A stretch of DNA of 41,530 nucleotides from Zavarzinia sp. GTDB lineage: Bacteria > Pseudomonadota > Alphaproteobacteria > Zavarziniales > Zavarziniaceae. Positions 6,230 through 32,492 of the stretch are shown piece by piece. The stretch is taken from NCBI GenBank assembly GCA_025869435.1, contig JAOZVS010000134.1, positions 1 through 41,530 of the forward strand, in the 5' to 3' direction. The notes under the pieces were generated by a model, which searched no databases, was not told where the DNA came from, and saw nothing but the letters and a program-made list of their open reading frames with translations. Positions within the stretch are counted from its first letter, which is position 1, and every line of letters starts with the position of its first letter. Both the position numbers and the translations under genes were made by a program.

Positions 6230-6272
6230 AAGGCATAAAGCCGACAATCGGCCAATCGGCAAAACCTATTGA

Positions 6273-6285: not shown

Positions 6286-6290
6286 GCGTT

Positions 6291-6306
6291 TGGCATGGGG
6301 CTTGCG
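6291..6306 (+). promoter_or_regulatory. Sigma-54 (-24/-12) promoter for iscA-nifUSV
   Basis: TGGCATGGGGCTTGCG fits YTGGCACG-N4-TTGCW, with the invariant GG and GC at the correct 10-base spacing. The start codon of iscA lies 36 bases downstream. With the NifA site upstream this makes a standard nif promoter. Confidence 0.88.
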
Positions 6307-6341
6307 ATGTCTCCCTCAGACCAATCTTGGGGAACCTCGCC

Positions 6342-6662: not shown

Positions 6663-6673
6663 GGAGACGGGCC

Positions 6674-7600
6674 ATGTGGGAATACAGCGAGAAGGTTCAG
6701 GATTATTTCTATAACCCGAAGAACGCGGGCGTCATGGAAAACGCCAGCGGCATCGGCGATGTCGGCGCCATTTCCTGCGGCGATGCGCTGCGCCTGATGA
6801 TCAAGGTCGATCCCGTCACCGATGTGATCACCGACGCCAAGTTCCAGACGTTCGGTTGCGGCTCGGCCATCGCCTCGTCCTCGGCCCTGACCGAACTGAT
6901 CATCGGCAAGACCATCGCGGAAGCCCTGACCCTGACCAATCAGGATATCGCCGATTTCCTGGGCGGCCTGCCGCCCGAGAAGATGCATTGCTCCGTCATG
7001 GGTTACGAAGCCCTGCGGGCCGCGGTCGCCAACTATCGGGGCGAGGCCTGGGAGGATGACCACGAGGAAGGCGCCCTCGTCTGCAAGTGCTTCGGCGTCG
7101 ACGAAGGCATGATCGAGCGCGCGGTGCGTAATAACGGCCTGACCACCCTCGAGCAGGTCACCCATTTCACCAAGGCCGGCGGCTCCTGTGCCACCTGCAT
7201 CGAGGGGATCGAGGAAGTTCTGGCCAAGACCAACGCTGCCATGGTCGTCGAGGGTCTGCTGGATGCGTCCGAAGCCTTCGATCCCCATCAGGCGCTGCGC
7301 CCGGTGCGGCGGCCGAAGACCGGAAAATCCCCCCTCGCCATCAAGCTGGAGCCGGTGACCAAGGCAAAGCTGACCAACCTGCAGCGCATCCGCCTGATCG
7401 AGGAAGCGATCGAGGGCCTGCGCCCCTTCCTGCGCCAGGACGGCGGCGACTGCGAACTGGTCGATGTCGAGGGTGACCGCGTGCTGGTGAAACTGTCGGG
7501 TGCCTGCATCGGTTGCCAGATGGCCAGCGTCACGGTGAACGGCGTGCAGGAACGGCTGATCGAAAAGCTCGGCCAGCCGCTTCGCGTCATTCCGGTCTGA
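6674..7600 (+). CDS. nifU: Iron-sulfur cluster scaffold NifU (three-domain)
   Basis: This is full-length NifU (308 aa), the scaffold for nitrogenase Fe-S clusters. Residues 1-125 form the IscU-like domain with Cys35, Cys62 and Cys106 at exactly the classic Azotobacter positions. Residues 135-180 form the central 2Fe-2S (BFD-like) domain with Cys137, Cys139, Cys172 and Cys175. Residues about 225-308 form the NFU domain with CIGC (Cys278, Cys281). The ATG at 6674 gives [17 protein letters not shown], the standard start. nifS follows 20 bases downstream. Confidence 0.97.
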
Positions 7601-7620
7601 ACCGGGGAAGGGAGATCGCC

Positions 7621-8835
7621 ATGCGTCCCGTCTATCTCGACAATAACGCCACCACCAGGGTCGATCCGGCCGCCGTCGCCGCCATGCTGCCCTTCTTCAC
7701 CGAGCAGTTCGGCAATGCCTCGTCGATGCACGCCTTCGGCGCCTCGGTCGGCGGCGCGCTGAAGACCGCGCGGCGCCAGCTGCAGGAGCTGCTGGGGGCC
7801 GAGCATGATCACGAGATCATCTATACCTCGGGCGGCACGGAATCCGACAATACCGCCATTCTGTCGGCGCTGGAGACGCAAGGAGGCCGCACCGAGGTGA
7901 TCACCTCGGTGGTGGAACATCCGGCGATCCTCGCGCTGTGCGACTGGCTGGAGAAGCACAAGAGCGTCACCATCCACCGCATCCCGGTCGACGCCAAGGG
8001 CCGGCTCGACGTCGAGGCCTATCGCAAGGCCCTGGGTCCGAAGACGGCGATCGCCTCGATCATGTGGGCCAACAACGAGACGGGCACCCTGTTCCCGGTC
8101 GAGCGCCTCGCCGAAATGGCTCATGAGGCCGGCGCCCTGTTTCATACCGACGCGGTGCAGGCCGTGGGCAAGCTGCCGATCGACCTGAAATCGACCGAGA
8201 TCGACATGCTGTCGCTGTCGGGCCACAAGCTGCACGGGCCGAAGGGCATCGGCGCGCTCTATGTCCGCAAGGGCGTGCGCCTGCGTCCGCTGATCCGCGG
8301 CGGCCATCAGGAACGCGGCCGCCGCGCGGGGACCGAGAATGCCCCGGCGATCATCGGCCTCGGCAAGGCGGCGGAACTCGCCCTCGCCCATATGAGCGAC
8401 GAGCAGACAAGGGTGAAGGCCCTGCGCGACCGGCTGGAACAAGGCCTGTTGCAGCGGATCGGCAGCAGTTTCGTGACCGGCGATAGCGATCACCGCCTAC
8501 CCAACACCGCCAATGTCGCCTTCGAATTCATCGAGGGCGAGGCGATCCTCCTGCTTCTCAACCGGGCCGGCATCGCCGCGTCCTCGGGCTCCGCCTGCAC
8601 CTCGGGCTCGCTGGAGCCATCCCATGTCCTGCGCGCCATGAAGGTGCCCTATACGGCGGCCCATGGCGCCATCCGCTTCTCCTTCTCGCGCGAGAACGGC
8701 GACGAGGACGTGGACCGCGTGCTCGAGGTGATGCCCGGCATCATCGCCAACCTGCGCTCGCTTTCGCCCTTCTGGAAGGACAAGGGCGCGGCCAAAGCGG
8801 CGCCGAATGCCGCCTTCAACCCGACCTACGCCTGA
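7621..8835 (+). CDS. nifS: Cysteine desulfurase NifS
   Basis: NifS (404 aa) is a PLP-dependent desulfurase that supplies sulfur to NifU. The start [16 protein letters not shown] is typical. The PLP-binding lysine lies in [10 protein letters not shown] (Lys203) and the catalytic cysteine in SGSACTSGS (Cys326), as in group I NifS. The frame is open back to 7513, but only the ATG at 7621, behind GGGAAGGGAG, gives the family N-terminus. It sits between nifU and nifV in one unit. Confidence 0.97.
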
Positions 8836-18754: not shown

Positions 18755-18771
18755 TGCGCCAATTTGGCGCA
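18755..18771. promoter_or_regulatory. 17-bp perfect palindrome, NtrC-site-like
   Basis: TGCGCCAATTTGGCGCA is a perfect dyad (8+1+8). It has the size and layout of NtrC sites (TGCACC-N5-GGTGCA), differing by one compensated base in each half. It lies 22 bases before the ATG of the next gene, closer than usual for an activator, so repression or another regulator is possible. Confidence 0.5.
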
Positions 18772-18793
18772 AAATAACCCCACGGCACCATCC

Positions 18794-20116
18794 ATGCTGC
18801 AACTGGCCTTTGTTCTGATCGGTCCCCAAGCCTTCCGGTCACGGTGGTTCGTCATCGTGATCGCGGGCGGGCTTCTCGCTCTCCTGGTCGTGCTTCTGCC
18901 CACCCTCGACCTTTTCGCCGGTCTCCTCGGCCCGGCGCGGGTCGCGCTGGGCCTTTTATTCGTCGCCCATGGCCTGCTGGCCCTGCCCGCCCTTGCCGAG
19001 GGTGGCTTTTCCTCGCGCCGGCTGCTCGATCTGGCCAAGGCCGGCGGTTTCCTGCTGCTGGGCGTGCTCTTGCTGGTGCCGTCCCTATGGAGTCCGCTGG
19101 CGATGGCGCTCCTGTTCGGCGCCGCCTTCGCCCTGGACGGACTGACACGGGCGGCGACGGCGATTCTGGTGCGATTCGCCGGCTGGACCATCGTCGTCGG
19201 TTGCGGCCTGCTGGAAATCGTCTTCGCCGTGGTGATCATCGCCGGCTGGCCGCTGCCCCGGACCGAGGCGATCCCGCTCGGCGTCGGCCTGCTGCTCGGC
19301 CTGTCGGCCTGGCTGATGATCCAGCTAGGCCTGATGCTGCGCACCCTCGAGGACGAGGCGGCGATCCTGAACCTGCCGATCTTCGCCGGGCGCGGCTGGT
19401 ACGAGCACGCCCCGGTGCTGATCGGCGAGGACCCGCCCATGGCGCCCGATCAACCGCCCCTGACCGTCCATATCTGGACTCCCGCCGGTGCCGCCGACAA
19501 GCCGGAGCGACTGCTGCTGATCGACCGCTATGTCGCGGCGGTCGACGCCAATGGCGAGGTCTCGACGGGACATTCCGCGCTGGAAGTCGCGCCGGACGTC
19601 TACATCAGCCATTACCCCTCGATCGATCTGAAAGCCTCCGCCGGGGCGGCGGTGCTGCATTCGGGCGCGCACAACAACATGGCGGGCAGCTTTCAGCCGT
19701 CCTATGCCGCCGAAAGCGCCGATTGGTGCGAGGCCGATGCCCATGTCGAGATCCGGCGCTACAGCCCCCGGCGGCTGCGCGCCTTCTGGATCGGCTACCG
19801 CCAGGACAGCACCTATAATCTGACCGCCCGCAACTGCTCGACCGTGGTCGCATCCGCCCTCGACGCCGCGCTCGAATCGGTGCTGACCTGTCGCCGGCCC
19901 TGGCTCGGCCTCCTGAAACTGCTGCTGAACCCCGATCTGTGGGCGGCCGCCTGGGTGCGCAGCCACGCCATGTCGGGGACATGGACGCCGGGCCTCGTCC
20001 TCGATTACGCGCGGGCCCTGTCGCGCGTGGTCGATCAGCGCGATATGTCCTGGGGCGAACGGCTCCGGGGTTTTCTGTCCCGCGCCCCGCGCTCTGGCAA
20101 GGCTGTTCCCCTATGA
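18794..20116 (+). CDS. Multi-pass membrane protein (HdeD/DUF308-like) fused to a predicted permuted papain-like domain
   Basis: This is a 440-aa protein. Residues about 12-185 contain around six hydrophobic segments with the pattern of HdeD/DUF308 proteins. Residues about 210-390 form a soluble domain with GHSALEV (His260) and ARNCSTVVASALDAAL (Cys348). A His before a Cys, each in such a context, is what circularly permuted papain-like enzymes (YiiX/LRAT/PPPDE types) show. The catalytic assignment is my inference. A TTG at 18764 is in frame, but it lies inside the palindrome, so I chose the ATG. The stop overlaps the start of the MFS gene. Confidence 0.6.
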   Translation: MLQLAFVLIGPQAFRSRWFVIVIAGGLLALLVVLLPTLDLFAGLLGPARVALGLLFVAHGLLALPALAEGGFSSRRLLDLAKAGGFLLLGVLLLVPSLWSPLAMALLFGAAFALDGLTRAATAILVRFAGWTIVVGCGLLEIVFAVVIIAGWPLPRTEAIPLGVGLLLGLSAWLMIQLGLMLRTLEDEAAILNLPIFAGRGWYEHAPVLIGEDPPMAPDQPPLTVHIWTPAGAADKPERLLLIDRYVAAVDANGEVSTGHSALEVAPDVYISHYPSIDLKASAGAAVLHSGAHNNMAGSFQPSYAAESADWCEADAHVEIRRYSPRRLRAFWIGYRQDSTYNLTARNCSTVVASALDAALESVLTCRRPWLGLLKLLLNPDLWAAAWVRSHAMSGTWTPGLVLDYARALSRVVDQRDMSWGERLRGFLSRAPRSGKAVPL

Positions 20117-21252
20117 ATCTGTTCTCGCGTGGGGCCGTCATCATGACGGCGATGATGTTCGGCCTGACCTACAGCCTGAGCACGGCGCTGATCGCCCTCG
20201 ATCTCGCGGCCCGGGGCCTGAGCGAGACGATGATCGGCGCCAATGTCGCCATGCACGCGGTCGGCGTCCTCGTCACCGCCCTCGTGCTGCCGCGCATCGT
20301 CGCCCGCTTCGGTGCCCGCCGCCTCGTCATCGGGGCGCTGGTCCTGGCCGCAATCGTGTTGATGAGCTTCCCGGCCCTGCCCTTCGTCTGGCTGTGGTTT
20401 CCCTTGCGCATCGTGCTCGGCGCCTCGTCCGAAATTCTGTTCGTCCTGTCCGAGACCTGGACCAACAGCCTCAGCACCGAGGACAGCCGGGCGCGCTGGA
20501 TGGCGGGCTATACCGCCGCGATCTCGATCGGCTTCGCCCTTGGCCCCGTCATCCTGTCGGTGATCGGCACCGGCGGCTTCGCCCCCTATGCGACGGGCGC
20601 CGTCATCGCCCTGGCCGCCGCCGGCCTCGTCGCCTCGCCGAAAGTCACCGCCCCGGTGTTCGACGAGCCGTCCGTGGGCAATCCGCTCTATTTCATCCGG
20701 CTGGCGCCCATCGCCATTTCGGCGACCGTGCTCAACGCCGCGATCGAGGTCGCCGGCCTGTCCTTCCTCGCGCTATACGCCGTCTCGCTGGGCTGGGCGG
20801 AAGATAACGCCACCCGCCTGATGTCCTGCATGATGATCGGCGCGATCGTGCTGCAACTGCCCATCGGCTGGCTGGGCGACAAGCTGGACCGGACGAGGTT
20901 CACCGCCGCCCTCGCCCTGCTGTCCATGCTCGGCGCCCTCGCCTGGCCCTTCGCGCTCGGCAGCGAGATCGCGACCTATGCCCTGCTGTTCGTCTGGGGC
21001 GGCACTTTCGTCGGCATCTACACGATGATGCTGACCATCGTCGGCAGCCGCTTCAAGGGCGCCGAACTCGTCGGCATCTATGCCACCATGGGGCTGGTCT
21101 GGGGTGTCGGGGCGCTGGCCGGCCCGCTGCTGGCCGGGCTGGCGATGGAGAATTTCACCCATGGCCTCGCCTATTTCGCGGCGGCGGCCTGCGGGATCTT
21201 CTTCCTCGCGGTGACCTTCTGGCCGGGTCAGCGCGCCCAGATATCGGACTGA
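20113..21252 (+). CDS. MFS transporter
   Basis: This is a 379-aa major facilitator protein of about 12 hydrophobic segments. It shows loop motifs such as LPRIVARFGARRLVIG after the second or third helix and the half-repeat equivalent GWLGDKLDRTRF. It resembles the YcaD/sugar-efflux-like MFS groups; the substrate cannot be told. The ATG overlaps the stop of the DUF308-like gene (ATGA), so the two form an operon. Its 3' end overlaps the convergent solute-binding-protein gene by 25 bases. Confidence 0.85.
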   Translation: MNLFSRGAVIMTAMMFGLTYSLSTALIALDLAARGLSETMIGANVAMHAVGVLVTALVLPRIVARFGARRLVIGALVLAAIVLMSFPALPFVWLWFPLRIVLGASSEILFVLSETWTNSLSTEDSRARWMAGYTAAISIGFALGPVILSVIGTGGFAPYATGAVIALAAAGLVASPKVTAPVFDEPSVGNPLYFIRLAPIAISATVLNAAIEVAGLSFLALYAVSLGWAEDNATRLMSCMMIGAIVLQLPIGWLGDKLDRTRFTAALALLSMLGALAWPFALGSEIATYALLFVWGGTFVGIYTMMLTIVGSRFKGAELVGIYATMGLVWGVGALAGPLLAGLAMENFTHGLAYFAAAACGIFFLAVTFWPGQRAQISD

Positions 21253-22103
21253 AGCAGATAGTCCCGCGTCGAGCGGTCGAGGGGATAGACCATCACGCCG
21301 TCGCGGCCGAACCACTTGTCGTGGATCTCCATGTAGCGGCCGCGATAATCGGCAAGCCCCCGGGTGAGGCCGATGATCGTCGCATTGACGAAATCGCGCC
21401 AGGCGCTGTCGTCCTGCGGCAGCACGCAGGCCATGGCCTCATTGCCCAGCGGCTCGGTCCGGGGCAGCAGGACGACGCTGCGCCCCGGCTCGAGCTTGCG
21501 CGACAGGCCGAGCAGGATGATGCCGATATTGGCGACACCCTGCACCTCGCCCCGGGTGAGCGCGCCGAAGGCCGCGTCCATGGTCGGATAGGATCTGGTG
21601 CGAATGCCGGGCAGGGTCTGGTTGAGGATATCGCCGGTGGTGGTGCCTTCGGCGATGCCGACCACCATGTCCTTCACCTCGGGCACGGTCCGCAGCGTGT
21701 CGCGGAAGGCGAGGACCCTTGTGCCATCGCGAAAGAAGGGGACGGAGAAATCGACGGTCTTTTCCCGCTCCCAGGTCGGCGTCGTGATTTCGCAGACGAT
21801 GTCGAGTTCGCCGCCCGCGACCCGCTGCAAGCGGTCGGCCGGGGTGACGACCGACAGTTCGACCCGGACCGGCCGGTCCAGCCGGGCCTCGGCCGCCGCG
21901 CGGATCTCCTCGATCAGGTCGACGGAAAAACCCGTGAGACGGCCATCCTCGCCGGCATAGGCGAAGGGCACGGCATCGGCCCTTGTGCCGGCGTGGATGA
22001 CGCCGCTTTCGCCGATGCGGGACAGGACATCCGCCTGCGCCGGCGTGATCAGGCCAGAGGCGGCAAGTGCGGCGACGAGGGCGAAACCCGGCATTCTGAT
22101 CAC
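21228..22103 (-). CDS. Polar amino-acid-type periplasmic solute-binding protein
   Basis: This is a 291-aa family 3 solute-binding protein. A signal peptide (MPGFALVAALAASGL, cleaved near AQA) precedes the PBPb fold, with GRLTGFSVDLIEEI, GGELDIVCEITTPTWEREK and the hinge regions. The GTG at 22103 has GAAGG 7 bases upstream, whereas the ATG three codons later has poor spacing; upstream frame extensions lack a signal peptide. It is divergent from, and homologous to, the solute-binding half of the next gene. It probably feeds the same membrane components. No dedicated ATPase gene is present. Confidence 0.85.
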   Translation of the reverse strand: MIRMPGFALVAALAASGLITPAQADVLSRIGESGVIHAGTRADAVPFAYAGEDGRLTGFSVDLIEEIRAAAEARLDRPVRVELSVVTPADRLQRVAGGELDIVCEITTPTWEREKTVDFSVPFFRDGTRVLAFRDTLRTVPEVKDMVVGIAEGTTTGDILNQTLPGIRTRSYPTMDAAFGALTRGEVQGVANIGIILLGLSRKLEPGRSVVLLPRTEPLGNEAMACVLPQDDSAWRDFVNATIIGLTRGLADYRGRYMEIHDKWFGRDGVMVYPLDRSTRDYLLQSDIWAR

Positions 22104-22131
22104 GGTGAAACCTTCACGCTGCCCCGCTACG

Positions 22132-22147
22132 AAATTGGTGCCAATTT
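22132..22147. promoter_or_regulatory. Dyad in the divergent intergenic region of the solute-binding genes
   Basis: AAATTGG-TG-CCAATTT is a 7+2+7 inverted repeat in the 112-base gap between the two divergent solute-binding genes. Its right half continues as GCCAATTTGG, a 10-mer shared with the palindrome at 18755-18771. It is a candidate operator for both genes. Confidence 0.5.
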
Positions 22148-22215
22148 GGGGGATAATTGTTGATAAATTACCGCGATCCTTTCCGCCAGTCCTAACCCAT
22201 TTCCGGGAAACCTCC

Positions 22216-23772
22216 TTGTCGCGCATCCTTCCGGCTCTTCTTCTCTGGCTGCCGATCGTCCTCGGTCTGGCTGCCGCGCCGGCAAGGGCCGACACGCTGG
22301 CGGATATCCGCGCCCGGGGCGAAATGATCGCCGGGGTGAAGGCGGATTACGAACCCTTCGGTTACCGGGGAGCGACCGGGGATATCATCGGTTTCGACGC
22401 CGATGTCGCGGCGGATCTTGCCGCCGCCATCGGGGTTCCCGTCCGGCTGGTCGCGGTCACCAGCGCCAATCGCCTGCAGAAACTGGCCGCGGGCGAGATC
22501 GACGTGGTGGTCGCCACCCTGGGCGACACGATCGACCGCCGCCGCCTCGTCCGCATGATCGAGCCCGGCTATTACGGCGGCGGCGCCAGCGTGCTGCTGC
22601 CGGGTGATAGCCCGATTCGCGACTGGGCCGCCTTGCGCGGCGCCCCCCTTTGCGCCGTGCAGGGGGCGCTGTGGAACCGCCTCGCCGCCGCCCGCCTGCT
22701 GGCCGACATCCGCGCCTTCGGCAATCCGCGCGACGCGGAACTCGCGCTGCGCGACCGGGCCTGCGCCGGCTGGCTTTACGACGAGGCGGCCTTGCAGCAC
22801 CGGCTGGCCAGCGGCGACTGGCCGGGCTACCGCCTGCTGCCCGCCGATTTCGTCGCCCCCTGGGCGATCGCGGTCGCCGGCGAAGGTCCCCTGGCCCGGC
22901 TGTTCGACGAAACCGTGGCCGGCTGGCTGCGCGATGGTCATCTGCTGGCGCTGGAGGAAAAATGGCGTCTGCCGCCCTCCACCTATCTGCGGGAGGCCGG
23001 GCGCCTGTGGTCGGCGAAGGGGCCGGACGGTCAATGGCGCTGCCGCCGCGAGGGCGACGCCCCCTGGCCCGCCGAATGCCGCGACCTCAACCTGATCGAG
23101 GCGCAGGACCTGCGCGGTATCGGCGCCGCCATTCTGTCACTGCGCGACGATCTCGGCATCGACCTGACACCCTTCTACGATCCCTACAGCCGTGACCTGT
23201 TCCTGCGCGCCCTGGCGACCACCGCCCTGCTGGCCGTGCTGGTGGTCATCGGCAGCCTGATCACCGGCATTTGCGGCGCCCTGGCCCTGCGCTGGCGCCT
23301 GCCCCTGCTCACGCCCCTGGTCGGCGGGGTGCTGACGGGCCTGCGCATGACGCCGCCCCTGTTGCAGCTCTATCTCGTCTTCTTCGGTCTTGGCGGCGTC
23401 ATCGCTGCGCAAGGGGTGACGCTGGGCGCGCTCGCCGCCGCGGTGATCGTCCTCTCGCTCTATGCCGGGGCTGCCAATGCGGTGGCGCTGGCGGAAGCGG
23501 CGGCCGCCATCCCATCCGGGGGCGACCGGCGGCGCCGCATCGTCGCCCTCGCCTATCCGGCCGTCATGGGCAGCTGCATCAACATCGTGAAGGCGACGGC
23601 GATGGCGAGCGCCATCGCCGTGCCGGAACTGGTCCATGCCAGCACCGCGATCATCACCGATTACGGCAATGGCGGCGTGATGATGAATATCCTGCTCGGC
23701 TGCTATGTCGTCCTCGTTCTCGTCGTGGTGCAGGGTTTCACCCTCTTCGAGCGCAAGGTTCTGCGGCGATGA
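22216..23772 (+). CDS. Solute-binding domain fused to ABC-type permease
   Basis: This is a 518-aa fusion. A signal-anchor-like N-terminus (residues 1-26) is followed by a family 3 solute-binding domain (about 27-260) with GDIIGFDADVAADLAAAIG. Next comes a short region with two cysteines (Cys276, Cys288), then an amino-acid-type permease domain (about 330-518) with LRMTPPLLQLYLVFFGLGG. The EAA coupling loop (AEAAAAIPSGGDRRRR) lacks the normal glycine spacing. The only start that keeps the signal segment is TTG at 22216, behind GGGAA. The stop overlaps the next ATG. No ATPase subunit is encoded nearby. Confidence 0.82.
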   Translation: MSRILPALLLWLPIVLGLAAAPARADTLADIRARGEMIAGVKADYEPFGYRGATGDIIGFDADVAADLAAAIGVPVRLVAVTSANRLQKLAAGEIDVVVATLGDTIDRRRLVRMIEPGYYGGGASVLLPGDSPIRDWAALRGAPLCAVQGALWNRLAAARLLADIRAFGNPRDAELALRDRACAGWLYDEAALQHRLASGDWPGYRLLPADFVAPWAIAVAGEGPLARLFDETVAGWLRDGHLLALEEKWRLPPSTYLREAGRLWSAKGPDGQWRCRREGDAPWPAECRDLNLIEAQDLRGIGAAILSLRDDLGIDLTPFYDPYSRDLFLRALATTALLAVLVVIGSLITGICGALALRWRLPLLTPLVGGVLTGLRMTPPLLQLYLVFFGLGGVIAAQGVTLGALAAAVIVLSLYAGAANAVALAEAAAAIPSGGDRRRRIVALAYPAVMGSCINIVKATAMASAIAVPELVHASTAIITDYGNGGVMMNILLGCYVVLVLVVVQGFTLFERKVLRR

Positions 23773-24923
23773 GCGCGGGCGACATCCTGGCCCTGCTGCT
23801 GACCTGGACGCCGTTCCTCGCCCTCGGCTTTCTGTGGAACATATTGATTTCGCTGGTCTCCATGGCGATCGGCACGCCGCTGGGCTTCGGTCTCGCCCGC
23901 CTGCGGCTGTCGGGCTCGCGCATCGGCGCCGGCCTGACCGCCGCCGCGCGCCTGCCGCCGACCTTCGTGCTGATCTATTACCTCGCCTATGTCCTGCCGA
24001 CCGAGATCGTCATTTCCGGTTACAGCCTCGGCCTGCCGGGCTGGCTGAAGGCCTCCCTCGCCCTGTCGGTCGCGGTCGCCGGCTTCGTCTCGGACAACGC
24101 GCTGTCCGCGCTGCGCCACCATAAAAGGGGCGAGCGGGTGGAGGCGCTCTATTTCATTCCGGCCTGGACGACCTATTTCCTGATCATCGTCATGGCCTCC
24201 TCCACCGCTTCGGTGATCGGCGTGCCGGAAATCGTCCAGCGCGCCAACACGGTCATCGCCGCCGTGGGCGAACCTTCGGCGACGCTCTGGGTCTATCTCT
24301 ATGCCATGCTGTGGTTCCTCGGCTTCTGCTGGCCGCTGGCCCGGCTGATGAGCCATATCCGCGCTCGCCTGGGCCGGCGCGCCGGCTCGCAGGCCGGGCG
24401 ACAGGTGCCACTGGCGGACCGGGGCGGTTTCGCCGAACTCAATCTGATCATCCTGCCGGACGGGGAACTGCCCATGGCCGCCGACATCATCCTGGAAAAG
24501 CGCTTCGACATCGCCCCGGAGCTTGCCTCGATCGCGACGATCCAGGCCGAGATCGAGGCGGCGGCGGAAGACATCCTGCCCCCCGGCGCCGTCTTCAAGC
24601 TGACCATGGCGGTCGAGGAACTGGTGACCAATGCCGTCCTGCACGGCGGCTGCGGCAACCAGCCCATCGGCATCGGCATCCTGGTCGATCCGCGCTGCGT
24701 GACGGTGGAACTGAGCGACGCCGGCACCGCCTTCGATCCGTTCCGGGAAGCACCGCCGCCCGATCTCGACGCGGCGCTGGAGGACCGCCAGATCGGCGGC
24801 CTCGGCATCCATCTGGTCGGGCGCATGGTCGACCGGGCCTATTACCACCGGATCGGCGAGCGGAACCACGTCCGTCTCGTCATGCTGCGGCCGGGCGTCG
24901 CCAGCGACGGGATCACGCCGTGA
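23769..24923 (+). CDS. ABC-type permease fused to an RsbW-like GHKL kinase domain
   Basis: This is a 384-aa protein. Residues 1-200 form a polar-amino-acid permease domain (FLWNILISLVSMAIGTPLGF, AARLPPTFVLIYYLAYVLP). After a basic linker, residues about 236-380 form an RsbW/SpoIIAB-type GHKL ATPase domain. The N-box is VEELVTNAVLHGG (Glu284, Asn288), the G1 box SDAGTAFDP (Asp317, Gly319) and the G2 box IGGLGIHLVGRM (Gly343-Gly346). The kinase motifs are intact, but the permease EAA loop is not recognisable. An ATG at 24474 with GGGGAA upstream could also give a free kinase. It overlaps both neighbours (ATGA, GTGA), so it is in one operon with the phosphatase. Confidence 0.82.
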   Translation: MSAGDILALLLTWTPFLALGFLWNILISLVSMAIGTPLGFGLARLRLSGSRIGAGLTAAARLPPTFVLIYYLAYVLPTEIVISGYSLGLPGWLKASLALSVAVAGFVSDNALSALRHHKRGERVEALYFIPAWTTYFLIIVMASSTASVIGVPEIVQRANTVIAAVGEPSATLWVYLYAMLWFLGFCWPLARLMSHIRARLGRRAGSQAGRQVPLADRGGFAELNLIILPDGELPMAADIILEKRFDIAPELASIATIQAEIEAAAEDILPPGAVFKLTMAVEELVTNAVLHGGCGNQPIGIGILVDPRCVTVELSDAGTAFDPFREAPPPDLDAALEDRQIGGLGIHLVGRMVDRAYYHRIGERNHVRLVMLRPGVASDGITP

Positions 24924-26845
24924 CCCTGACCCGGCGCCTCGTCCTGATGGTGGCGGCCTGCATCGCCCTCGCCATCCTCGCCATCAGCCTCGTCTTCGGC
25001 GGTCTCGGCCGCCGCGCCCTGATCGCCCAGGCGGAAGGTCAGGCCCAGGCCGTCGCCCGCATCGTCGCGGAAAGCGCACGGCTCACCGAAATCTCGCTGG
25101 AGGAAATGCGCAACGTCCTCCTCGACGATCTCGCCACCCTCGCCTTCGCCATCGCCAACACGAACGAGGCGGAAGGCACCGAGATCGGCACGCGGCTGGC
25201 CGAGATCGTCGCCCGGGGCAATCTGTCGTCGATCTGGCTGGTCGATAACGAGCTTCACGTCCTCGCCCATTCGATCGGCGATTACGGTGCCATCATCAAG
25301 GGCGAAAGCCTGCCGCCGGCCCTGCCCGGCGAAGCCCTGACGGCGTTGACCAGCGGCAAGCGCTTCAGCTTGGCCCTGGGCGGGCCGATCGACGGCATCC
25401 AATATGTCGGCGTGCGGGTCGCGGGCGGGCGGGCGCTGATCGCCGGCCAGCCGGTCACCGTCCTTGCCCCGGTGCGCGCGGCCAACAGCCTGCCCGTCCT
25501 GCTGGCCGCCCTGCTCGACCGCGACGAGATTCAGGCGATCCAGGTCTTCGACGACACGCAAGCGCTTCTGGCGCGGGTCGGCGACGGATTGCCGGCGGCG
25601 GATGTGGCGGCCGTCGCCGCCGCCACCATCGCCGGCACGGCACCGGCGTCGAGCCTGCGGCCGGCCCATCTGCTGGTCGCGGCGCCCATCCGCGATACCG
25701 CCGGCATCACCATCGGCGCGACGGTCATCGCCCTGTCGACCGCGCGGCTCGACCGGATGCTGGCCGACTATCTGCTTTACGGCGCGGTCGCGGCCAGCCT
25801 TGTCTTCGCCTTCGGCGTCGCCGCCGCCGGCCTGTTCGCGGGCCGCATCGCCCGCCCCGTCGCCGCCATGACCAGAGCCGCGACGGAGATCGACGGCCGC
25901 CGCTTCGACCCGGCCAGCCTCGACGCGCTGGCAAGGCAGGGCGACGAATTGGGCACCCTCGCCCGGGTGTTCCAGCACATGGCGATCGAGGTGCAGGCGC
26001 GCGAGGAACACCTCGAGGCCCTCGTCCGGGCGCGGACTCTCGAACTCGAACAGAAGAACGAATTGCTGGAAGCCTCGCGGCGCCGGGTCGAGGCGGAGCT
26101 GGACGCGGCGCGGTCCCTGCAGGCGGCGATCCTGCCCCAGGCCCTGCCCGTCCACCCGTCCTACGCCGGCAAGGCGACCATGGTGCCGGCCAGGGAATTG
26201 GGCGGCGATTTCTATGATTTCTTCGCCATCGACGAGCGCCACCTCGGCATCGTCATCGCCGATGTCTCGGGCAAGGGCGTGCCGGCCGCCTTCTTCATGG
26301 CGATCTCGCGCACCGTGCTGCAGTCGAGCGCGCGGGAAAACCCCTCGCCCGGGGCCTGCCTCGCCGCGGCCAACACATTGCTGTGCGCGCAGAACCCGAT
26401 GGATCTCTTCGTCACCACCTTCTACGGCATCCTCGACACAGAGACGGGCGAATTCGCCTATGCCAATGGCGGCCACAACCCGCCGCTGGTCATCCGCCGG
26501 GCGGATGGTGCCGTCACCGATCTGCCGCGCACCGCGGGCATGGCGCTTGGCGTGATGCCCGACATTCCCTATGCCGAGAAGCGCCTTCAACTCGATCCGG
26601 GCGACACGCTCTTCCTCTATACCGACGGCATATCGGAAGCGATGGACCGCGGCGGCCACGAATTCACCGAGGCCCGCCTGCGCGATGCCTTGAAGGACGC
26701 GCGGACGGAAGCCGTCGATATCGTGATTTCGGGTGTGACGGCGGCGGTCGAGCGATTCGTCGACGGGGCCGAACAATCGGACGACATCACCTGTCTGGTC
26801 GTCCGCTATATCGGCCCGCCGCCCCGTCTCGCCGCCGTGTCCTGA
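24920..26845 (+). CDS. Membrane HAMP-SpoIIE (PP2C) serine phosphatase, RsbU-like
   Basis: This is a 641-aa membrane phosphatase. TM1 spans about residues 7-29 (LVLMVAACIALAILAISLVF), followed by a roughly 250-residue periplasmic sensor region, TM2 (about 285-308), HAMP, and a coiled coil (about 365-405, ALVRARTLELEQKNELLEAS). The C-terminus is a SpoIIE-type PP2C domain. Metal-site motifs are intact: ELGGDFYDFF (Asp430), IADVSGKGVPAAF (Asp448), YTDGISEAMD (Asp569) and QSDDITC (Asp621, Asp622). It should dephosphorylate a phosphorylated STAS antagonist. The GTG start overlaps the kinase gene stop. It converges on the STAS gene with no intergenic base. Confidence 0.92.
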   Translation: MTLTRRLVLMVAACIALAILAISLVFGGLGRRALIAQAEGQAQAVARIVAESARLTEISLEEMRNVLLDDLATLAFAIANTNEAEGTEIGTRLAEIVARGNLSSIWLVDNELHVLAHSIGDYGAIIKGESLPPALPGEALTALTSGKRFSLALGGPIDGIQYVGVRVAGGRALIAGQPVTVLAPVRAANSLPVLLAALLDRDEIQAIQVFDDTQALLARVGDGLPAADVAAVAAATIAGTAPASSLRPAHLLVAAPIRDTAGITIGATVIALSTARLDRMLADYLLYGAVAASLVFAFGVAAAGLFAGRIARPVAAMTRAATEIDGRRFDPASLDALARQGDELGTLARVFQHMAIEVQAREEHLEALVRARTLELEQKNELLEASRRRVEAELDAARSLQAAILPQALPVHPSYAGKATMVPARELGGDFYDFFAIDERHLGIVIADVSGKGVPAAFFMAISRTVLQSSARENPSPGACLAAANTLLCAQNPMDLFVTTFYGILDTETGEFAYANGGHNPPLVIRRADGAVTDLPRTAGMALGVMPDIPYAEKRLQLDPGDTLFLYTDGISEAMDRGGHEFTEARLRDALKDARTEAVDIVISGVTAAVERFVDGAEQSDDITCLVVRYIGPPPRLAAVS

Positions 26846-27172
26846 TCAGAAACGGGCCAGCGCCTCGGCCCGGCTGGGCGCGACGTCGAGAATGCCGAGA
26901 AAGCCCGAAATCTCGAACACGTCGCGAATATGAGGCTGCAATCCGGCGAGAACGAAACGGCCGCCCGCCTGTTTCAGCCGTTTGGCGACCACGAGGACGA
27001 CGCGCAGCCCCGCGCTCGAAATATAGTCCAGCCGGGTGAAATCCAGCACGAAACCGCCCGCGCCGACGCGGGTGATCAGCTCGGCCTCGACAGCCGGGGA
27101 ATTGGTGCTGTCCAGCCGCCCCTGAAGGCTTGCGACGATCGCCTGTTCCACCGTCTCGAAGGTAATGCTCAT
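26846..27172 (-). CDS. STAS-domain anti-sigma-factor antagonist (RsbV/SpoIIAA-like)
   Basis: This is a 108-aa single STAS domain. The phosphorylation loop is LDYISSAGLRVVL, with Ser53 aligning with the phospho-serine of SpoIIAA/RsbV. ATG at 27172 is preceded by GGAG; longer frames upstream do not belong to the domain. By inference it is the substrate of the kinase domain encoded at 23769-24923 and of the phosphatase at 24920-26845. Its stop codon and the phosphatase stop meet in the hexamer TGATCA. Its target sigma factor or other effector is not in the window. Confidence 0.93.
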   Translation of the reverse strand: MSITFETVEQAIVASLQGRLDSTNSPAVEAELITRVGAGGFVLDFTRLDYISSAGLRVVLVVAKRLKQAGGRFVLAGLQPHIRDVFEISGFLGILDVAPSRAEALARF

Positions 27173-27251: not shown

Positions 27252-27373
27252 ATACGAAAGAGCCGAGGGCACGCCCCCGGCGACCTTCTGCGGGAGTATG
27301 GCATGGTGCGTGAAGGCGGGCGACAGTGTGGGACAGGGGGGAACGGCGGCGCTCGGGACGTGCGGGCCGATCC

Positions 27374-29131
27374 ATGACCCTGATCCGTCTGCCCCCGTCC
27401 CGGCCGCGTCGGCGGCCGCAGGAATTATCGGTCGCCGCCGATGAAAGCGCCCCCCTGTCGACCCTGCTGCCCCTTGGCCTGCAACACGCGGCCATGGCGC
27501 TCGGCCTGTCCGCCTATGTCCTGGCCCTGGCCAAGGGCGCCCATTTCGGGGTCGAGGAGACGCGGACCCTGCTCGCCGTCTCGATCATCACCATGGCTCT
27601 GGGCACCGGGCTGCAGGCCTGGGGCGGACGTCTCGGCTCCGGCGCGCTGATCGTCCATATTCCGGGTCCGCTGTTGGTCACCCAGGCGGCACCGATCCTG
27701 TCGGTGACGGGGCCGGGCGGCATGACGGTGCTTTCCGTCGCCTGCGCCCTGGTCGCGCTGCTGGTCGCGCCGCTGACCACGCGCCTGCGGGGCCTGTTTC
27801 CGCCCATCGTCGCCGGCCTCGTCGTGCTGATCGGCGGCATTTCACTGATTCAGGGCGCCATCACCCACGCCGCTGGCCTTGACGCCGCCATGGCGCCGGA
27901 CGGCGACAGCCTCGCCATCGCGGCGGTCACCCTTGGCCTGATCATCGGCCTGTCGATCTGGGGTAGCCGGCGCTTGAAGCTCTTTTCCCTGCTGATCGGC
28001 ATCCTGGGCGGCGTGGTGACCGCCCTGCTGCTCGGCCGTCTGTCCGGGGGCGAGGCGCTGGCCAGCGTCCCCGTTGTCGCCCTGCCCGCCATTGTCGCGC
28101 CGGTGTTCGACGTACCGGTCGGCGCGCTGATCGCCGTCGCCTTCGTCGCGCTCCTGGTACAGATCGACGCGATCGGCAGCTTCATCCTGATGGACCGGAT
28201 GGACGACGCCGACTGGCGCCGGCCCGACATGAAGCAGGCCGGGCGCGGCATCCTGGCCGCCGGCATCGGCGATTTCCTCGGCGGCCTTCTGGGCGGCATG
28301 GCGACCGCGACATCCTCGGCCAATATCGGGCTGTGCCACGCCAGCCGGGCCACCACCCGCTATGCCGGGCTGGTCGCCGCCGGCCTGCTGCTGGTGATCG
28401 CCTTCCTGCCGCAGGTCACCATGGCGCTGACCCTGATCCCGACGCCGGTCATCGGCGCGATCGAGCTTTATTCCGCCGCCTTCCTGATCGCGGCCGGCGT
28501 CGACCTGGTCGCCTCGCGCCAGCTCGACACGCGGGGCGTGTTCATCATCGGCCTGTCGCTGGTCTGCGGCATTTCGGTCCTGCTGATGCCGGGCATCGCC
28601 GCCCAGGCGCCGCCGTCCCTGCACCATCTGGTGGGCAGCGGCTTCATCGTCACCGGCGCCCTCGCGATCACGCTCAATCAATTGTTCCGCCTTGGCATCC
28701 GCCAGTCGGAAACCCGGGCAATTTCGCCTTCCGGCCCGGCCGTCAGCCATCAGGTCACCGATTTCATCGAACGCATGGGCGGCACCTGGGCTGCCCGGCG
28801 CGATATCGTCCGCCGCGCCGCCCAGGCCGCGGTCGAGGCGGTGGAAGCGATCGCCGCAGCCGGCGGCGGCCGCCGGGTGACCGCGATCGGCGGCCGTTTC
28901 GACGAGCTGAATTTCGATATCGACCTCTGGCACGACGGCCCGCCCCTGCCCCTTTCCGGCGCGGCGGCGCCCGATCTCGCCAACATCCTCGACGGGGCGG
29001 ACGATGAAGCCATCGATACCGCCATCGCCAATGTCTCGAACGTGCTCGTCCAGCGTCTGGCCGACCGGTTGAAATGCGGCAGCGACCCGGCCAGCGGCCG
29101 GTCGTTCATGCGCCTGCATTTCGACCATTGA
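27374..29131 (+). CDS. NCS2 (xanthine/uracil) family permease with C-terminal GHKL-like tail
   Basis: This is a 585-aa protein. Residues about 30-445 form an NCS2 nucleobase-transporter domain with around 14 hydrophobic segments. The nucleobase motif region reads SANIGLCHASRATTR, and the TM8 acidic position is Asp (VQIDAIGSFI). NCS2 proteins usually stop near 430-460 residues; here a soluble tail of about 127 residues (about 459-585) follows. In the tail, AAQAAVEAVEAIAAAGG followed by FDELNFDIDLWHDGPPL parallels the N-box and G1 regions of GHKL ATPases, with the N-box Asn lost. The substrate is unknown. GTG at 27326 is an alternative start. The methyltransferase gene follows 31 bases later. 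Confidence 0.8.
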   Translation: MTLIRLPPSRPRRRPQELSVAADESAPLSTLLPLGLQHAAMALGLSAYVLALAKGAHFGVEETRTLLAVSIITMALGTGLQAWGGRLGSGALIVHIPGPLLVTQAAPILSVTGPGGMTVLSVACALVALLVAPLTTRLRGLFPPIVAGLVVLIGGISLIQGAITHAAGLDAAMAPDGDSLAIAAVTLGLIIGLSIWGSRRLKLFSLLIGILGGVVTALLLGRLSGGEALASVPVVALPAIVAPVFDVPVGALIAVAFVALLVQIDAIGSFILMDRMDDADWRRPDMKQAGRGILAAGIGDFLGGLLGGMATATSSANIGLCHASRATTRYAGLVAAGLLLVIAFLPQVTMALTLIPTPVIGAIELYSAAFLIAAGVDLVASRQLDTRGVFIIGLSLVCGISVLLMPGIAAQAPPSLHHLVGSGFIVTGALAITLNQLFRLGIRQSETRAISPSGPAVSHQVTDFIERMGGTWAARRDIVRRAAQAAVEAVEAIAAAGGGRRVTAIGGRFDELNFDIDLWHDGPPLPLSGAAAPDLANILDGADDEAIDTAIANVSNVLVQRLADRLKCGSDPASGRSFMRLHFDH

Positions 29132-29162: not shown

Positions 29163-29981
29163 GTGACCCTGCTGATCGACCGGAACACCTGGAGGCCTGC
29201 CTTGGACCGTGAGGACATGGGTCGCAGCTATGACGCCTATTTCTCGTCCGGCGTCTATCTGTCCCGCTATCCACGGCCGAACCGGCGCACCCTGCGACTG
29301 TTGGCCGGCCTGTTGCCGGCGGGCGGCCGCCTGCTCGATTATGGCGCCGGCGAGGGGCGCTATTGCTTCAGCCTGGCGCGCAGTCATGACGCGGCGGTGA
29401 CCGCCGTCGACATCAGCGCCGTCGCCCGCCAGCATCTCGGTGCCGTCGCCGGGCATCTGGGACTGTCCGGGCAGGTCGAGGTTTGCGACGCCGACGACGC
29501 GACCTACCGTCAGGCCCTCGCGCGCGGGGGCTTCGATATCGTCCTGCTGGGCTTCGGCGTGCTGGGCCATGTCGCCGGGCGGCAGCGGCGGATCGCGCTT
29601 CTGGCCGAATTGCGTTCGGCGCTGGCGCCCGGCGGGCGGCTGGTGCTCGGCCTGCCCAATGCCCTGCGGCGTTTCCGCGCCCGCCAGCGCGACTGCCGCG
29701 CCCTGGTCGCCCAAGGGCAGCTGGAGCCGGGCGACATCCGCTACGAGCGCCCGCTGGACGGTGGCGCGATCCCGCTGTTCTACCATCTCTTCACCGCGAA
29801 GGAGATCCGCGAGGACCTCGCCGAGGCGGGCTTCACGGTGGAGAGGCTGACCATCGAAAGCCTGCTGCCCGAAAGCGCCGTCACCCATTCGCGTCTGCTG
29901 GGCCTTCTGGACGACGGGGCCTCGGCGCTGCTGCCCGCCCCCCTCGGCTATGGCTTCCTGGTCACCGCCAGCGTCACCTGA
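29163..29981 (+). CDS. Class I SAM-dependent methyltransferase
   Basis: This is a 272-aa Rossmann-fold methyltransferase. Motif I is LLDYGAGEGRYCFSLA (about residues 57-72), motif II AVTAVDIS, and motif IV FDIVLLGFGVLGHV. LRSALAPGGRLVLGLPN is typical of the post-IV region. It resembles small-molecule methyltransferases; the substrate cannot be inferred. The GTG at 29163 sits behind AAGGAAA; a TTG at 29202 is an alternative start. It is co-directional with the flanking permease and carbonic anhydrase genes. Confidence 0.82.
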   Translation: MTLLIDRNTWRPALDREDMGRSYDAYFSSGVYLSRYPRPNRRTLRLLAGLLPAGGRLLDYGAGEGRYCFSLARSHDAAVTAVDISAVARQHLGAVAGHLGLSGQVEVCDADDATYRQALARGGFDIVLLGFGVLGHVAGRQRRIALLAELRSALAPGGRLVLGLPNALRRFRARQRDCRALVAQGQLEPGDIRYERPLDGGAIPLFYHLFTAKEIREDLAEAGFTVERLTIESLLPESAVTHSRLLGLLDDGASALLPAPLGYGFLVTASVT

Positions 29982-30030
29982 CAGATTTCACCCGCATCTC
30001 CACCGCCAACCCCAGGGGGACAAGTTGAGC

Positions 30031-30720
30031 ATGGATCGACCCGCCGGCTGCACCTGCCGTGACATCAGCCATCTCACCGATGGTATTCGCGCCTTCAAGG
30101 CCCGCCACTATGGCGCCAGCCCCGGCCTGATGCGGTCGCTGGTCGAGGAGGGGCAGGCCCCCGCGACCCTGATGATTTCCTGTTCCGACAGCCGGGTCGA
30201 TCCCGCCCTGCTGTCCGGCGCGGACCCGGGGGAGCTGTTCACCGTCCGCAATGTCGCCAACCTGGTGCCGCCCTATCAGCCCGGCCCGTCGTTGCACGGC
30301 ACCGGCGCCGCCATCGAATATGCCGTGCGCGACCTGATGGTCGATCACATCGTCGTCATGGGCCATGCCCACTGCGGCGGCATCAAGGCCCTGATCGGCA
30401 GCGCCGAGGGCAAGCGCATGGCGCGCGACTTCATCAACGACTGGGTCGAGCTGGCGCTTGACGCCTGCCGGATCCATGTCGGCCATGCCGATGGCGCCGA
30501 CAGCCGCCGCCCCGTGTCGCTGGAATTGCTGAAGGACAATCCCTTCCTCGTGGAGCGCGCGGCCATCGCCGGCTCGATCGGCAATCTCCTGACCTATCCC
30601 TGGCTGAAGGAGCGGGTCGATGCGGGCACGCTTCAACTCCATGGCTGGTGGTTCGACCTCGATACCGGGGATCTGTGGCAAACCAGGCCCGGGGAAACCC
30701 GCCTGTTCCCGGTGCTCTAA
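30031..30720 (+). CDS. Beta-class carbonic anhydrase
   Basis: This is a 229-aa zinc enzyme interconverting CO2 and bicarbonate. Zinc ligands and the Asp-Arg dyad are present: CSDSR (Cys51, Asp53, Arg55) and GHAHCGG (His112, Cys115). VRNVANLVPPY and GSIGNLLTYPW are family segments. ATG at 30031 and TTG at 30025 both lie behind AGGGGGA; I prefer the ATG. It lies between two NCS2-type permeases, so it may act with one of them (inference). Confidence 0.94.
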   Translation: MDRPAGCTCRDISHLTDGIRAFKARHYGASPGLMRSLVEEGQAPATLMISCSDSRVDPALLSGADPGELFTVRNVANLVPPYQPGPSLHGTGAAIEYAVRDLMVDHIVVMGHAHCGGIKALIGSAEGKRMARDFINDWVELALDACRIHVGHADGADSRRPVSLELLKDNPFLVERAAIAGSIGNLLTYPWLKERVDAGTLQLHGWWFDLDTGDLWQTRPGETRLFPVL

Positions 30721-30779
30721 CACCGCCCCCCACCCCCTGCTCCCGCCCCCTTGTCTCTTCCTGTAAAACGAGTACCCCG

Positions 30780-32492
30780 ATGCGCCGACCCGACACGCTG
30801 CTCTACGGGATCGAAGATATCCCGCCGGCCCGCTTCGCCTTCGGCCTTGCCCTGCAACAGGTGGCCTTCCTCGGCGCCTTGCTGGCGGTGCCCGCCTTCT
30901 TCGCGCGCAGCGCCGGGATGGATCAGGCCGCCTTCCTGAACCTCGCCGCCTGCGGCCTGATCTATTCGGCCGTCGCCCTGCTGCTTCAGGCCTGGGGGCG
31001 CTTCGGTATCGGCGCCGGCATCTTCCTGCCGGTGCAGGGCACCACCTCGGTCCTGCCCGTGCTGGCGCTCGGCCTTGCCCATTCGGGCCTCGGCGGGGGC
31101 TTCGGCATGTTCGCGGTCAGCGGCCTGTCCATGATCCTGTTCAGCTTCGTCATCAAGCGGCTGCGGGCGATCTTCACGGTCGAGGTCGCCGGCCTCGCCA
31201 TGCTGCTGATCGGCGCCGGCATCGGCATCATCGGCCTCAACCTGATCTTCTCGACGCAAGGGGCCGCCGGCCCCCAGCCGGAGCGGGTCGCCGTCGCCGG
31301 GGCGACGCTGGCGGTCATGGTCGCCTGCAATGTCTGGGGCCGGGGCGGGCTGAAGTTCTTCGCGACGGTGACCGGCCTTGGCTTTGGCCTTGTCCTCGCG
31401 ACCGCGGGCGGTCTTCTGACCGATGTCGATATCGCCGCCTTCGAGGGCGCCGCCGTCCTCCACCTGCCGGTCTTGCAGCAGTTCGGCTGGCATTTCGAGA
31501 TGGAAGCCCTGGTGCCCGCCATCATCACCGGCTTTTCCCTGTCGCTGACCTCGATGGGGGTGCAGACCGTCGCCCAGCGCTTCAACGATGCCGATTTCAA
31601 GCGGCCGGATCTCGATTCCGTTGGCCGGGGCGTCCGCGCCGAGGGCATCGCCCAGATCTTCGCCTCGCTGATCAACGCCATGCCCATGGCGGCCAGCGGC
31701 GGCGCCGCCAGCCTGGCCCTCGCCTCGGGCTGCACCAGCCGCCATCTCGCGATCTGGACCGCCGGGCTGCTGTTCCTGATCGCCCTCTGTCCCAAGGTGA
31801 TCGTCGCCTGGATGATCGTGCCGCCCGAGGTCCTGGGGGCGTTGTTCCTCTTCCTTTCATCCTTCGCGACGATCGGCGGCATCCAGATGATCGGCTCGCG
31901 GATGCTGGACAACCGGCGGTCGCTGGCGATCGGCATCGCGCTTCTGGTCGGCATCAGCTATGGCGACATCCATGATCAGCTGGAGCGCATGTTCCCCGGC
32001 GCCCATTACGTCGCCTTCTCGCAATTCGCCCTGGCCCTGACCACGGCCGTCGCGCTTCAGGCCCTGTTCCGCTTCGGCATCCGCCGCAAGACCCGGCAGA
32101 GCTTCGCCGTGGCCGACACCCATTTCGAGGACATGATCGCCTTCGTCGAGGCGCAGGGAAAGCTCTGGGGCGCCCGCCACGAGGCGGTGAAGCGGGCTGA
32201 ACTCGCCTCGTGGCAGGCGTTCGAATTGCTGAGGGACAGCAACCTTCTCGCCCCCGGCGCCGAGGCGATCGAACTCGAGACCCAGCAGGACGAATATAAT
32301 CTCACCATCTTCATCCGCTATCGCGGCACCCTGCCGGTGCTGGCCACCCATCCGCCCAGCCACGACGAAATGCTCGACGATGGCGACGCGCCGCAGCGCA
32401 TGGCGGGTTATCTCATCAACCGCCTGGCCGACAACGCGCGGACCCGGATGGCCGGATCCCAGGCCGAACTGAAACTGGATTTCCGCGACTGA
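30780..32492 (+). CDS. Divergent NCS2-family permease with C-terminal GHKL-like tail
   Basis: This is a 570-aa paralogue of the permease at 27374-29131. The membrane domain (about residues 15-435) is NCS2-like, but key positions differ. The TM8 acid is replaced by Thr (FSLSLTSMGVQTVA), and the usual N-x-G of the nucleobase motif reads SGGAASLALASG. The tail (about 440-570) has HEAVKRAELASWQAFELL, DEYNLTIFIRYRG and RMAGYLINRLADNARTR, in the same order as GHKL N, G1 and G2 regions but degenerate. It may transport something else or act as a sensor. The ribosome binding site before the ATG is poor. Confidence 0.75.
   Translation: MRRPDTLLYGIEDIPPARFAFGLALQQVAFLGALLAVPAFFARSAGMDQAAFLNLAACGLIYSAVALLLQAWGRFGIGAGIFLPVQGTTSVLPVLALGLAHSGLGGGFGMFAVSGLSMILFSFVIKRLRAIFTVEVAGLAMLLIGAGIGIIGLNLIFSTQGAAGPQPERVAVAGATLAVMVACNVWGRGGLKFFATVTGLGFGLVLATAGGLLTDVDIAAFEGAAVLHLPVLQQFGWHFEMEALVPAIITGFSLSLTSMGVQTVAQRFNDADFKRPDLDSVGRGVRAEGIAQIFASLINAMPMAASGGAASLALASGCTSRHLAIWTAGLLFLIALCPKVIVAWMIVPPEVLGALFLFLSSFATIGGIQMIGSRMLDNRRSLAIGIALLVGISYGDIHDQLERMFPGAHYVAFSQFALALTTAVALQALFRFGIRRKTRQSFAVADTHFEDMIAFVEAQGKLWGARHEAVKRAELASWQAFELLRDSNLLAPGAEAIELETQQDEYNLTIFIRYRGTLPVLATHPPSHDEMLDDGDAPQRMAGYLINRLADNARTRMAGSQAELKLDFRD

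Follow-up and report, generated by a model that had tools for sequence, protein, structure and literature searches.

A type I amino-acid importer without its ATPase as the probable receptor of a serine partner switch in Zavarzinia and related bacteria

Importer membrane parts are reused as receptors in the energy-coupling factor (ECF) S-component and 5TMR sensor histidine kinases, in which the AXXXA motif for the energising module is absent, and ECF S-component receptors occur as fusions to signalling domains, a SpoIIE-type phosphatase included (PMC11109136). Here, we describe a locus in Zavarzinia sp. (assembly GCA_025869435.1, contig JAOZVS010000134.1) in which the parts of an amino-acid-type ATP-binding cassette (ABC) importer are joined to a kinase, a phosphatase and a STAS protein of the partner-switching type. 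The window, that is, the whole stretch of DNA analysed, is 41,530 nucleotides long and represents one contig of a genome that is 75.5% complete. An initial interpretation made from the DNA alone (the sequence-only reading) took the locus for a receptor, in which periplasmic ligand binding is sensed by the permease pair and changes the phosphorylation of the STAS protein, releasing a sigma factor or another target. The receptor part of this interpretation was supported, since the ATPase is missing throughout the lineage, both docking loops were shortened, permease 2 was fused to a kinase or a phosphatase, and Ser53 of the STAS protein was invariant; the sigma-factor output was not. We put the probability at about three in four (0.76) that the locus encodes a transporter-derived receptor, namely an amino-acid-type importer minus its ATPase and the corresponding loops, which senses a periplasmic solute and is coupled to partner switching.

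The gene content of the block at 21228-27172 was as originally described: five genes encode a pair of SBP_bac_3 modules and a pair of amino-acid-type ABC permease domains, together with an RsbW-like kinase, a phosphatase with HAMP and SpoIIE domains, and a STAS protein (Table 1). One solute-binding protein (SBP1) is free, while the other (SBP2) is fused to permease 1 in the gene G2 (22216-23772). Permease 2 and the kinase share the gene G3 (23769-24923), and the phosphatase is encoded by G4. SBP1, SBP2 and the homologous permease pair together represent the composition of a type I importer. G2, G3 and G4 form a tight run with overlaps of 4 bases each (ATGA and GTGA), and the STAS gene and G4 converge stop to stop. 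In the predicted model of G3, residues 1-202 form the ABC permease and residues 234-375 the RsbW domain. The claim that the block lacks a cognate ABC ATPase also held: the sole ABC ATPase found nearby was ModC, which belongs to a modABC set in the window and was thereby ruled out as the ATPase of the receptor. The nearest named relative is Zavarzinia aquatilis (genome G004, same genus), with 92% identity in G2.

Among 385 genomes of the same class searched for G3-like permeases, 103 had some match and at least 8 had the system; of the many weaker matches, the part that we read consisted of ordinary permeases or free kinases. Scanning one genome per species (84,980 species) with an alignment of nine G2 proteins gave 34 loci, a lower bound set by the patterns used. 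Removing one ordinary transporter (L108) and adding the window and loci L021, L066 and L067 yielded a set of 37 loci. These represent a conserved system, with 33 loci that had no cognate ABC ATPase in view and four, the sister loci, that had one (L066, L067, L101 and L104). The 33 ATPase-less loci are mostly from Alphaproteobacteria, and named members include Zavarzinia, Corticibacterium, Oryzicola, Aquamicrobium, Kaistia, Mesorhizobium and metagenome-assembled genomes (MAGs) of Bosea, Defluviicoccus and Rhodospirillales. (L093 carries the label Gammaproteobacteria, and L096, on a contig labelled as an Anaerolineae MAG, is a near copy of the alphaproteobacterial L092 and probably a misbinned contig.) No plasmid copies of G3 were found at E 1e-25. 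The system genes are under purifying selection, with ratios of nonsynonymous to synonymous change (dN/dS) of 0.11-0.46 against two congeners (one only for STAS).

In type I importers, the ATPase grips one cytoplasmic loop per permease, the EAA loop. The coupling loops had been described as degenerate, and they were indeed shortened in both permeases throughout the measured ATPase-less loci. The segment of permease 2 that spans the EAA loop is 51 residues long in all 32 ATPase-less loci that allow measurement (L087, truncated at a contig end, was left out), versus 71 in all 13 ATPase-bearing relatives, which comprise the four sister loci and nine ordinary transporters. In permease 1, the corresponding segment has 56-64 residues in 33/33 ATPase-less loci versus 73 in 13/13 ATPase-bearing ones. 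The shortening amounts to 20 residues in permease 2 and 9-17 in permease 1, and none was seen in the 13 ATPase-bearing relatives. Two further ordinary loci (L164 and L168) have permease 1 and 2 segments of 73 and 71 residues, and two further ATPase-less loci from another class (L162 and L163) have 63 and 51. Relative to the solved Art(QN)2 permease 4yms_D, the ATPase-less family profile is missing 20 residues within RSLGMTHAMAMRYVIIPQAIKN, which we take to be the EAA loop, while the rest of the permeases are clearly homologous to the ATPase-bearing ones (hhalign probability 100, E 8.5e-44). Loss of the ATPase coincides with shortening of the EAA loop.

A phylogenetic tree was calculated from SBP2, permease 1 and permease 2, leaving out gappy columns (the loops among them), with 46 rows and 671 columns. 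The 33 ATPase-less loci form one clade with 100/100 support, whose stem is long (1.17 changes per column). The four loci with both ATPase and partner switch form the sister clade (support 100/99), with the nine ordinary transporters as the outgroup, and the presence of the ATPase needs one change on this tree. The program warned that long branches meet at the split between the ATPase-less and sister clades; a second tree with 30 rows, most of them shared, had the same groups. The ATPase-less system shares its ancestry with a sister form that has kept the ATPase. In L101 and L104, the gene order is STAS, SpoIIE, methyltransferase, SBP1, SBP2–permease 1, permease 2, ATPase and kinase, and loss of the ATPase gene would therefore leave permease 2 beside the kinase. 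The ATPase adjoins the kinase in all four sister loci, including L066 and L067, where the two genes lie on the other strand at distances of 1.3 and 9 kb from permease 2. SpoIIE is present in the same locus in all four, 2.9-10.9 kb from permease 2.

Among the ATPase-less loci, permease 2 lies beside the kinase gene in L076, L078, L079 and L099, the kinase gene directly follows permease 2 in Corticibacterium, Oryzicola and Aquamicrobium, and the two lie in one open frame in seven loci, the window included. In five loci of a different branch (L083, L084, L085, L097 and L100), the reading frame continues from the permease 2 C-terminus into the SpoIIE protein with no intervening stop codon. Judged by the reading frames, the same end of permease 2 appears to carry the kinase in one branch and the phosphatase in the other. 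Sequencing error was rejected as the source of the fusions, since the kinase fusion occurs in seven loci of several genera and the phosphatase fusion in five. The tree is compatible with one as well as with several origins of the kinase fusion. SpoIIE is found within 1.5 kb of permease 2 in 30 of the 33 ATPase-less loci, missing only in L087 (contig end), L102 and L103, and SBP1 was found in 29. None of SpoIIE, STAS and kinase occurs in 16 ordinary transporter loci used for comparison (L022-L028, L069-L073, L108, L164, L165 and L168), in windows of 5.5-19.9 kb that are mostly smaller than those of the system.

The N-box and GGxG motifs of the RsbW-family ATP site are present in 15/15 kinases, and Ser53 is conserved in 20/20 aligned STAS proteins. 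The SpoIIE match in G4 covers nearly the full profile, with the metal-site residues seen by eye only. A hydropathy plot of G4 shows four segments, of which 7-25 and 289-307 are likely membrane spans and 444-462 lies inside the phosphatase domain. On the periplasmic side, SBP2 retains the two Arg of the GDTxxRR motif and the Asp of YDE in all 37 loci; in HisJ/GlnH-type proteins, such Arg and Asp residues hold the amino-acid ligand. SBP1 keeps the Arg of TPTWxRE and has Asn where SBP2 has Asp. Because the Asp at that site is expected to hold the amino group, SBP1 and SBP2 may differ in the solutes that they bind, or SBP1 may act as a co-receptor.

Considering the single ATPase-less clade, the shortened loops and the alternative fusions to kinase or phosphatase, we think it probable that the motor was lost and that the permease pair serves as a receptor. 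In the proposed mechanism, a type I ABC importer would have lost both its ATPase and the loops gripped by it, and would sense rather than pump a solute of the periplasm, probably an amino acid. On ligand binding, the binding domain would close on the permease pair, and this change would be transmitted across the membrane to the cytoplasmic end of permease 2, which bears the RsbW-type kinase in Zavarzinia and the SpoIIE phosphatase in another branch. Signalling would thus run from receptor to switch, where the kinase and the membrane phosphatase G4 would set the phosphorylation of Ser53.

Several observations weigh against this mechanism. The kinase was found in 20 and STAS in 23 of the 33 ATPase-less loci (some of the misses are contig ends), and no kinase was in view in the branch of the L086 type. 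(In genome G153, kinase and STAS genes lie together on another contig than the receptor.) Loop-less receptors without a partner SpoIIE gene exist in Roseomonadaceae (L102 and L103) and in two genomes of another class (L162 and L163). The model of G3 is of moderate quality (pLDDT 73.9, pTM 0.48), with the linker mostly below 50. In four of the five permease–SpoIIE fusions, ATG, GTG or TTG occurs near the joint, making an internal start possible, although L083 has no possible start codon between residues −16 and +15 of the joint. Moreover, the sister form points to a switch that became joined to a transporter while this was still pumping, and that may originally have reported or controlled transport. 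Finally, one amino-acid-type ATPase of G153 has no permease found within 12 kb, and the ATPase neighbourhoods that we read cover 22 of 96 matches (see below).

The four bare receptors L102, L103, L162 and L163, consisting of SBP2–permease 1 and permease 2 and no ATPase, form one clade beside the switch-bearing ones. L102 also contains a divergent SpoIIE frame at 4276-7023.

The permease pair might still be a transporter that borrows a promiscuous ATPase encoded elsewhere, with the kinase and STAS regulating uptake. Shared ATPases of the MsmX type exist, and the sister lineage has an ATPase in the same locus. We therefore consider the results of a search with the ATPase of Oceanibaculum (L104) in eight genomes, two of them sister and six ATPase-less. 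The two sister genomes contain orthologs of the dedicated ATPase with 78% and 67% identity, while no close ortholog was found in the six ATPase-less genomes, where the best matches had 41-45% identity, like the second-best matches in the sister genomes. Neighbours were read for 22 of the 96 ATPase matches (E <= 1e-30) in the six genomes. Thirteen of these were of the amino-acid type (270 bits or more in the model used), and 12 of the 13 lie beside their own permeases. The exception, L128 in the ATPase-less genome G153, is a HisP-like ATPase with no permease found within 12 kb; it resembles an ordinary ATPase (49%) more than those of the sister lineage (38-39%). The distant ATPase that could have restored transport was thus mostly not found, with L128 as a loose end. 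Any shared ATPase would also meet shortened loops, since the docking loops are short in all measurable ATPase-less loci and in none of the 13 ATPase-bearing relatives. Taken together, we regard continued transport by a borrowed ATPase as decidedly improbable. (A sigma-70 region 2 match lies about 3 kb from the orphan ATPase in the L128/L169 region, on contig 44 of G153.) Within the 33 ATPase-less loci themselves, the sole ABC match above 250 bits was ModC in the window, compared to matches above 360 bits in all four sister loci. Thirteen other ATPase-less loci have weaker ABC matches of 62-202 bits, and the four that were typed, three PotA/UgpC-like (L078, L081 and L092) and one ZnuC-like (L086; scoring 275 bits as ZnuC, under the cut-off for that type, and beside Zur- and ZnuB-like genes named by eye), were rejected as cognate ATPases.

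A gated channel or facilitator is another way to account for a permease pair without a motor: the permeases would leak or co-transport the solute independently of ATP, and information would pass from the switch to the permease. Purifying selection on the permeases fits this idea, and a kinase or phosphatase joined to the permease would also suit a gate controller. However, binding proteins usually serve either energised uptake or receptors, and the STAS protein, which is the end of the pathway, is kept with the NCS2 and methyltransferase genes, in Z. aquatilis on a different contig from the receptor block, as would suit a signal that leaves the permease. We consider such a facilitator unlikely. 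It is very improbable that the permease pair is only a membrane anchor and that sensing falls to the periplasmic region of the SpoIIE phosphatase, as it does in other HAMP/SpoIIE proteins. SBP2 and its presumed ligand residues, which are retained in 37/37 loci, would be superfluous in a scaffold, and the receptor persists in the four loci without a partner SpoIIE gene, even though G4 does have its own predicted membrane spans and HAMP domain, and the linkage between kinase and permease is loose in several branches.

If the importer acts as a receptor, what is the output of the switch? In seven genomes, we found no Sigma70_r2 match closer than 19 kb to the receptor genes or to STAS, and the release of a sigma factor proposed in the sequence-only reading is therefore not supported by the neighbourhood, although an unlinked sigma factor is possible; the nearest match lies 19.4 kb from STAS in Z. 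aquatilis. The recurrent neighbours of the system are instead an S-adenosylmethionine (SAM) methyltransferase and nutrient transporters. The methyltransferase is present in 23/33 ATPase-less and 4/4 ATPase-bearing loci, even where the partner SpoIIE is lacking (L102, L103 and L162); receptor methylation is one idea for its role. Carbonic anhydrase is found in 4/33 loci and in the Z. aquatilis block on another contig.

Table 1. Features of the receptor locus and its downstream neighbours in the Zavarzinia window.
Feature	Coordinates	Strand	Evidence and remarks
SBP1, free periplasmic solute-binding protein	21228..22094	-	Pfam SBP_bac_3 1.9e-22; divergent from G2
G2, N-terminal part: SBP2, fused to permease 1	22216..22980	+	SBP_bac_3 7.4e-21
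G2, C-terminal part: permease 1	22984..23772	+	HEQRo_perm_3TM 2.2e-8, below cut-off; EAA loop segment 56 aa vs 73
G3, N-terminal part: permease 2	23769..24443	+	Five hydrophobic segments; EAA loop segment 20 aa shorter
G3, C-terminal part: RsbW/SpoIIAB-type serine kinase domain, fused to permease 2	24444..24923	+	HATPase_c_2 1.5e-19
G4, membrane phosphatase, HAMP + SpoIIE (PPM)	24920..26845	+	SpoIIE 9.7e-51 over profile 2-191 of 192; HAMP 2.2e-6
STAS antagonist protein, Ser53	26846..27172	-	STAS 4e-18
NCS2a, xanthine/uracil-type permease with C-terminal RsbW-fold tail (28691-29131)	27326..29131	+	Candidate output
Class I SAM methyltransferase, accessory	29163..29981	+	Methyltransf_23 2.9e-15
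Carbonic anhydrase, accessory	29950..30720	+	Pro_CA 6e-43
NCS2b, second NCS2 permease with related tail (32073-32492)	30648..32492	+	Xan_ur_permease 1.6e-28

The two NCS2 permeases of the window have C-terminal tails. In its predicted model, the tail of NCS2a has the RsbW/SpoIIAB fold, and the tail of NCS2b aligns with it at 26% identity. The N-box and GGxG motifs of the ATP site are absent in 12/12 NCS2 tails, and the NCS2a and NCS2b tails have no Pfam match. (The tail was also considered as a STAS domain, which was rejected for lack of a match.) Based on the model, the NCS2a tail is a plausible target of the STAS protein. This raises the tentative possibility, which we hold to be less probable than not, of a membrane-to-membrane circuit that works without a transcription factor: the motor-less importer would sense an external amino acid, its tethered kinase and phosphatase would set the phosphorylation of STAS, and STAS would dock on the RsbW-fold pseudokinase tails of the NCS2 permeases, opening or closing the uptake of other nitrogen compounds. 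If so, an importer would have turned from a pump into a sensor that governs other pumps. In other branches, STAS is encoded beside an ammonium transporter. In L094, L098, L105 and L106 (at about 2900-8000), the genes beside the receptor are STAS, a GPP34-like gene, the Amt ammonium transporter, a second STAS and glutamine synthetase III, a cluster pointing to nitrogen metabolism.

Upstream of the receptor block, at 18764-20116, the window encodes a 450-residue membrane protein with a weak Lnb_N match (below cut-off), which recurs close to the system in L075, L076 and L099.

Two features of a transceptor were seen here, namely a transporter-homologous membrane domain joined to a signalling domain, and loss of the interaction motif for the energising module. 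The transceptor idea thereby gains a whole type I ABC importer scaffold, and partner switching, for which the input signals are often unknown, gains a probable membrane receptor that has a likely ligand pocket. An output that is not transcriptional is suggested by the transporter tail mimicking RsbW. The steps by which receptors arise are usually lost to time; in this case, living relatives display them, from the ordinary importer, via importer plus switch with the ATPase, to the loss of the ATPase and short loops, and to the joining of kinase or phosphatase to the permease, and the origin of a receptor from a transporter is thus directly testable. The loci also call for caution in annotation, since they read as amino-acid uptake systems and probably import nothing. 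The sequence-only reading had known of no described system with this layout, and among the matches listed in the open-access literature, judged by title and opening of the abstract, none deals with a whole type I importer wired to Ser partner switching, whereas transporter-derived receptors and the RsbW/SpoIIE/STAS switch are both known. Within that literature, again among the matches listed, what is new is the use of a whole type I importer as a receptor, the loss of the ATPase together with the docking loops, the fusion of permease 2 to either kinase or phosphatase, and the RsbW-tailed NCS2 permease.

Art(QN)2 (PDB 4yms), an amino-acid ABC importer that transports, differs in having the EAA loop and an ATPase. 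In GlnH/GlnX/PknG, GlnX does not represent a pair of ABC permeases, PknG belongs to the eukaryote-type kinases, and no STAS switch is known; neither a binding protein nor an ATPase is known to be involved in CbrA or Ks-Amt5. The likeness to GlnH/GlnX/PknG lies in a binding protein for amino acids that reportedly feeds into Ser/Thr phosphorylation and does not serve uptake (PMC9769921, PMC6069109). CbrA, an SLC5–histidine kinase (PMC7096432, PMC13022988), and Ks-Amt5, an Amt–histidine kinase (PMC5764959), similarly have a transporter domain fused to a nutrient-reporting kinase, but differ in their secondary transporter or channel folds and in being histidine kinases. With RsbU/RsbW/RsbV and SpoIIE/SpoIIAB/SpoIIAA (PMC8256260), the Zavarzinia system shares the kinase fold and ATP-site motifs, the SpoIIE-type phosphatase, and the STAS protein with its conserved serine; it differs from both in the attachment of the kinase to an ABC permease, in the lack of a nearby sigma-factor gene in the seven genomes, and in the RsbW-fold tail of NCS2 as a candidate target. 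The ECF S-component receptors (PMC11109136) are alike in the use of ABC-importer parts as a receptor, in the loss of the motif for the energising module (the EAA loop here, AXXXA there) and in their signalling fusions. They are built on the S-component fold and are mostly histidine kinases or c-di-GMP enzymes, whereas the system described here combines a type I permease pair and binding proteins with a Ser kinase, a phosphatase and STAS.

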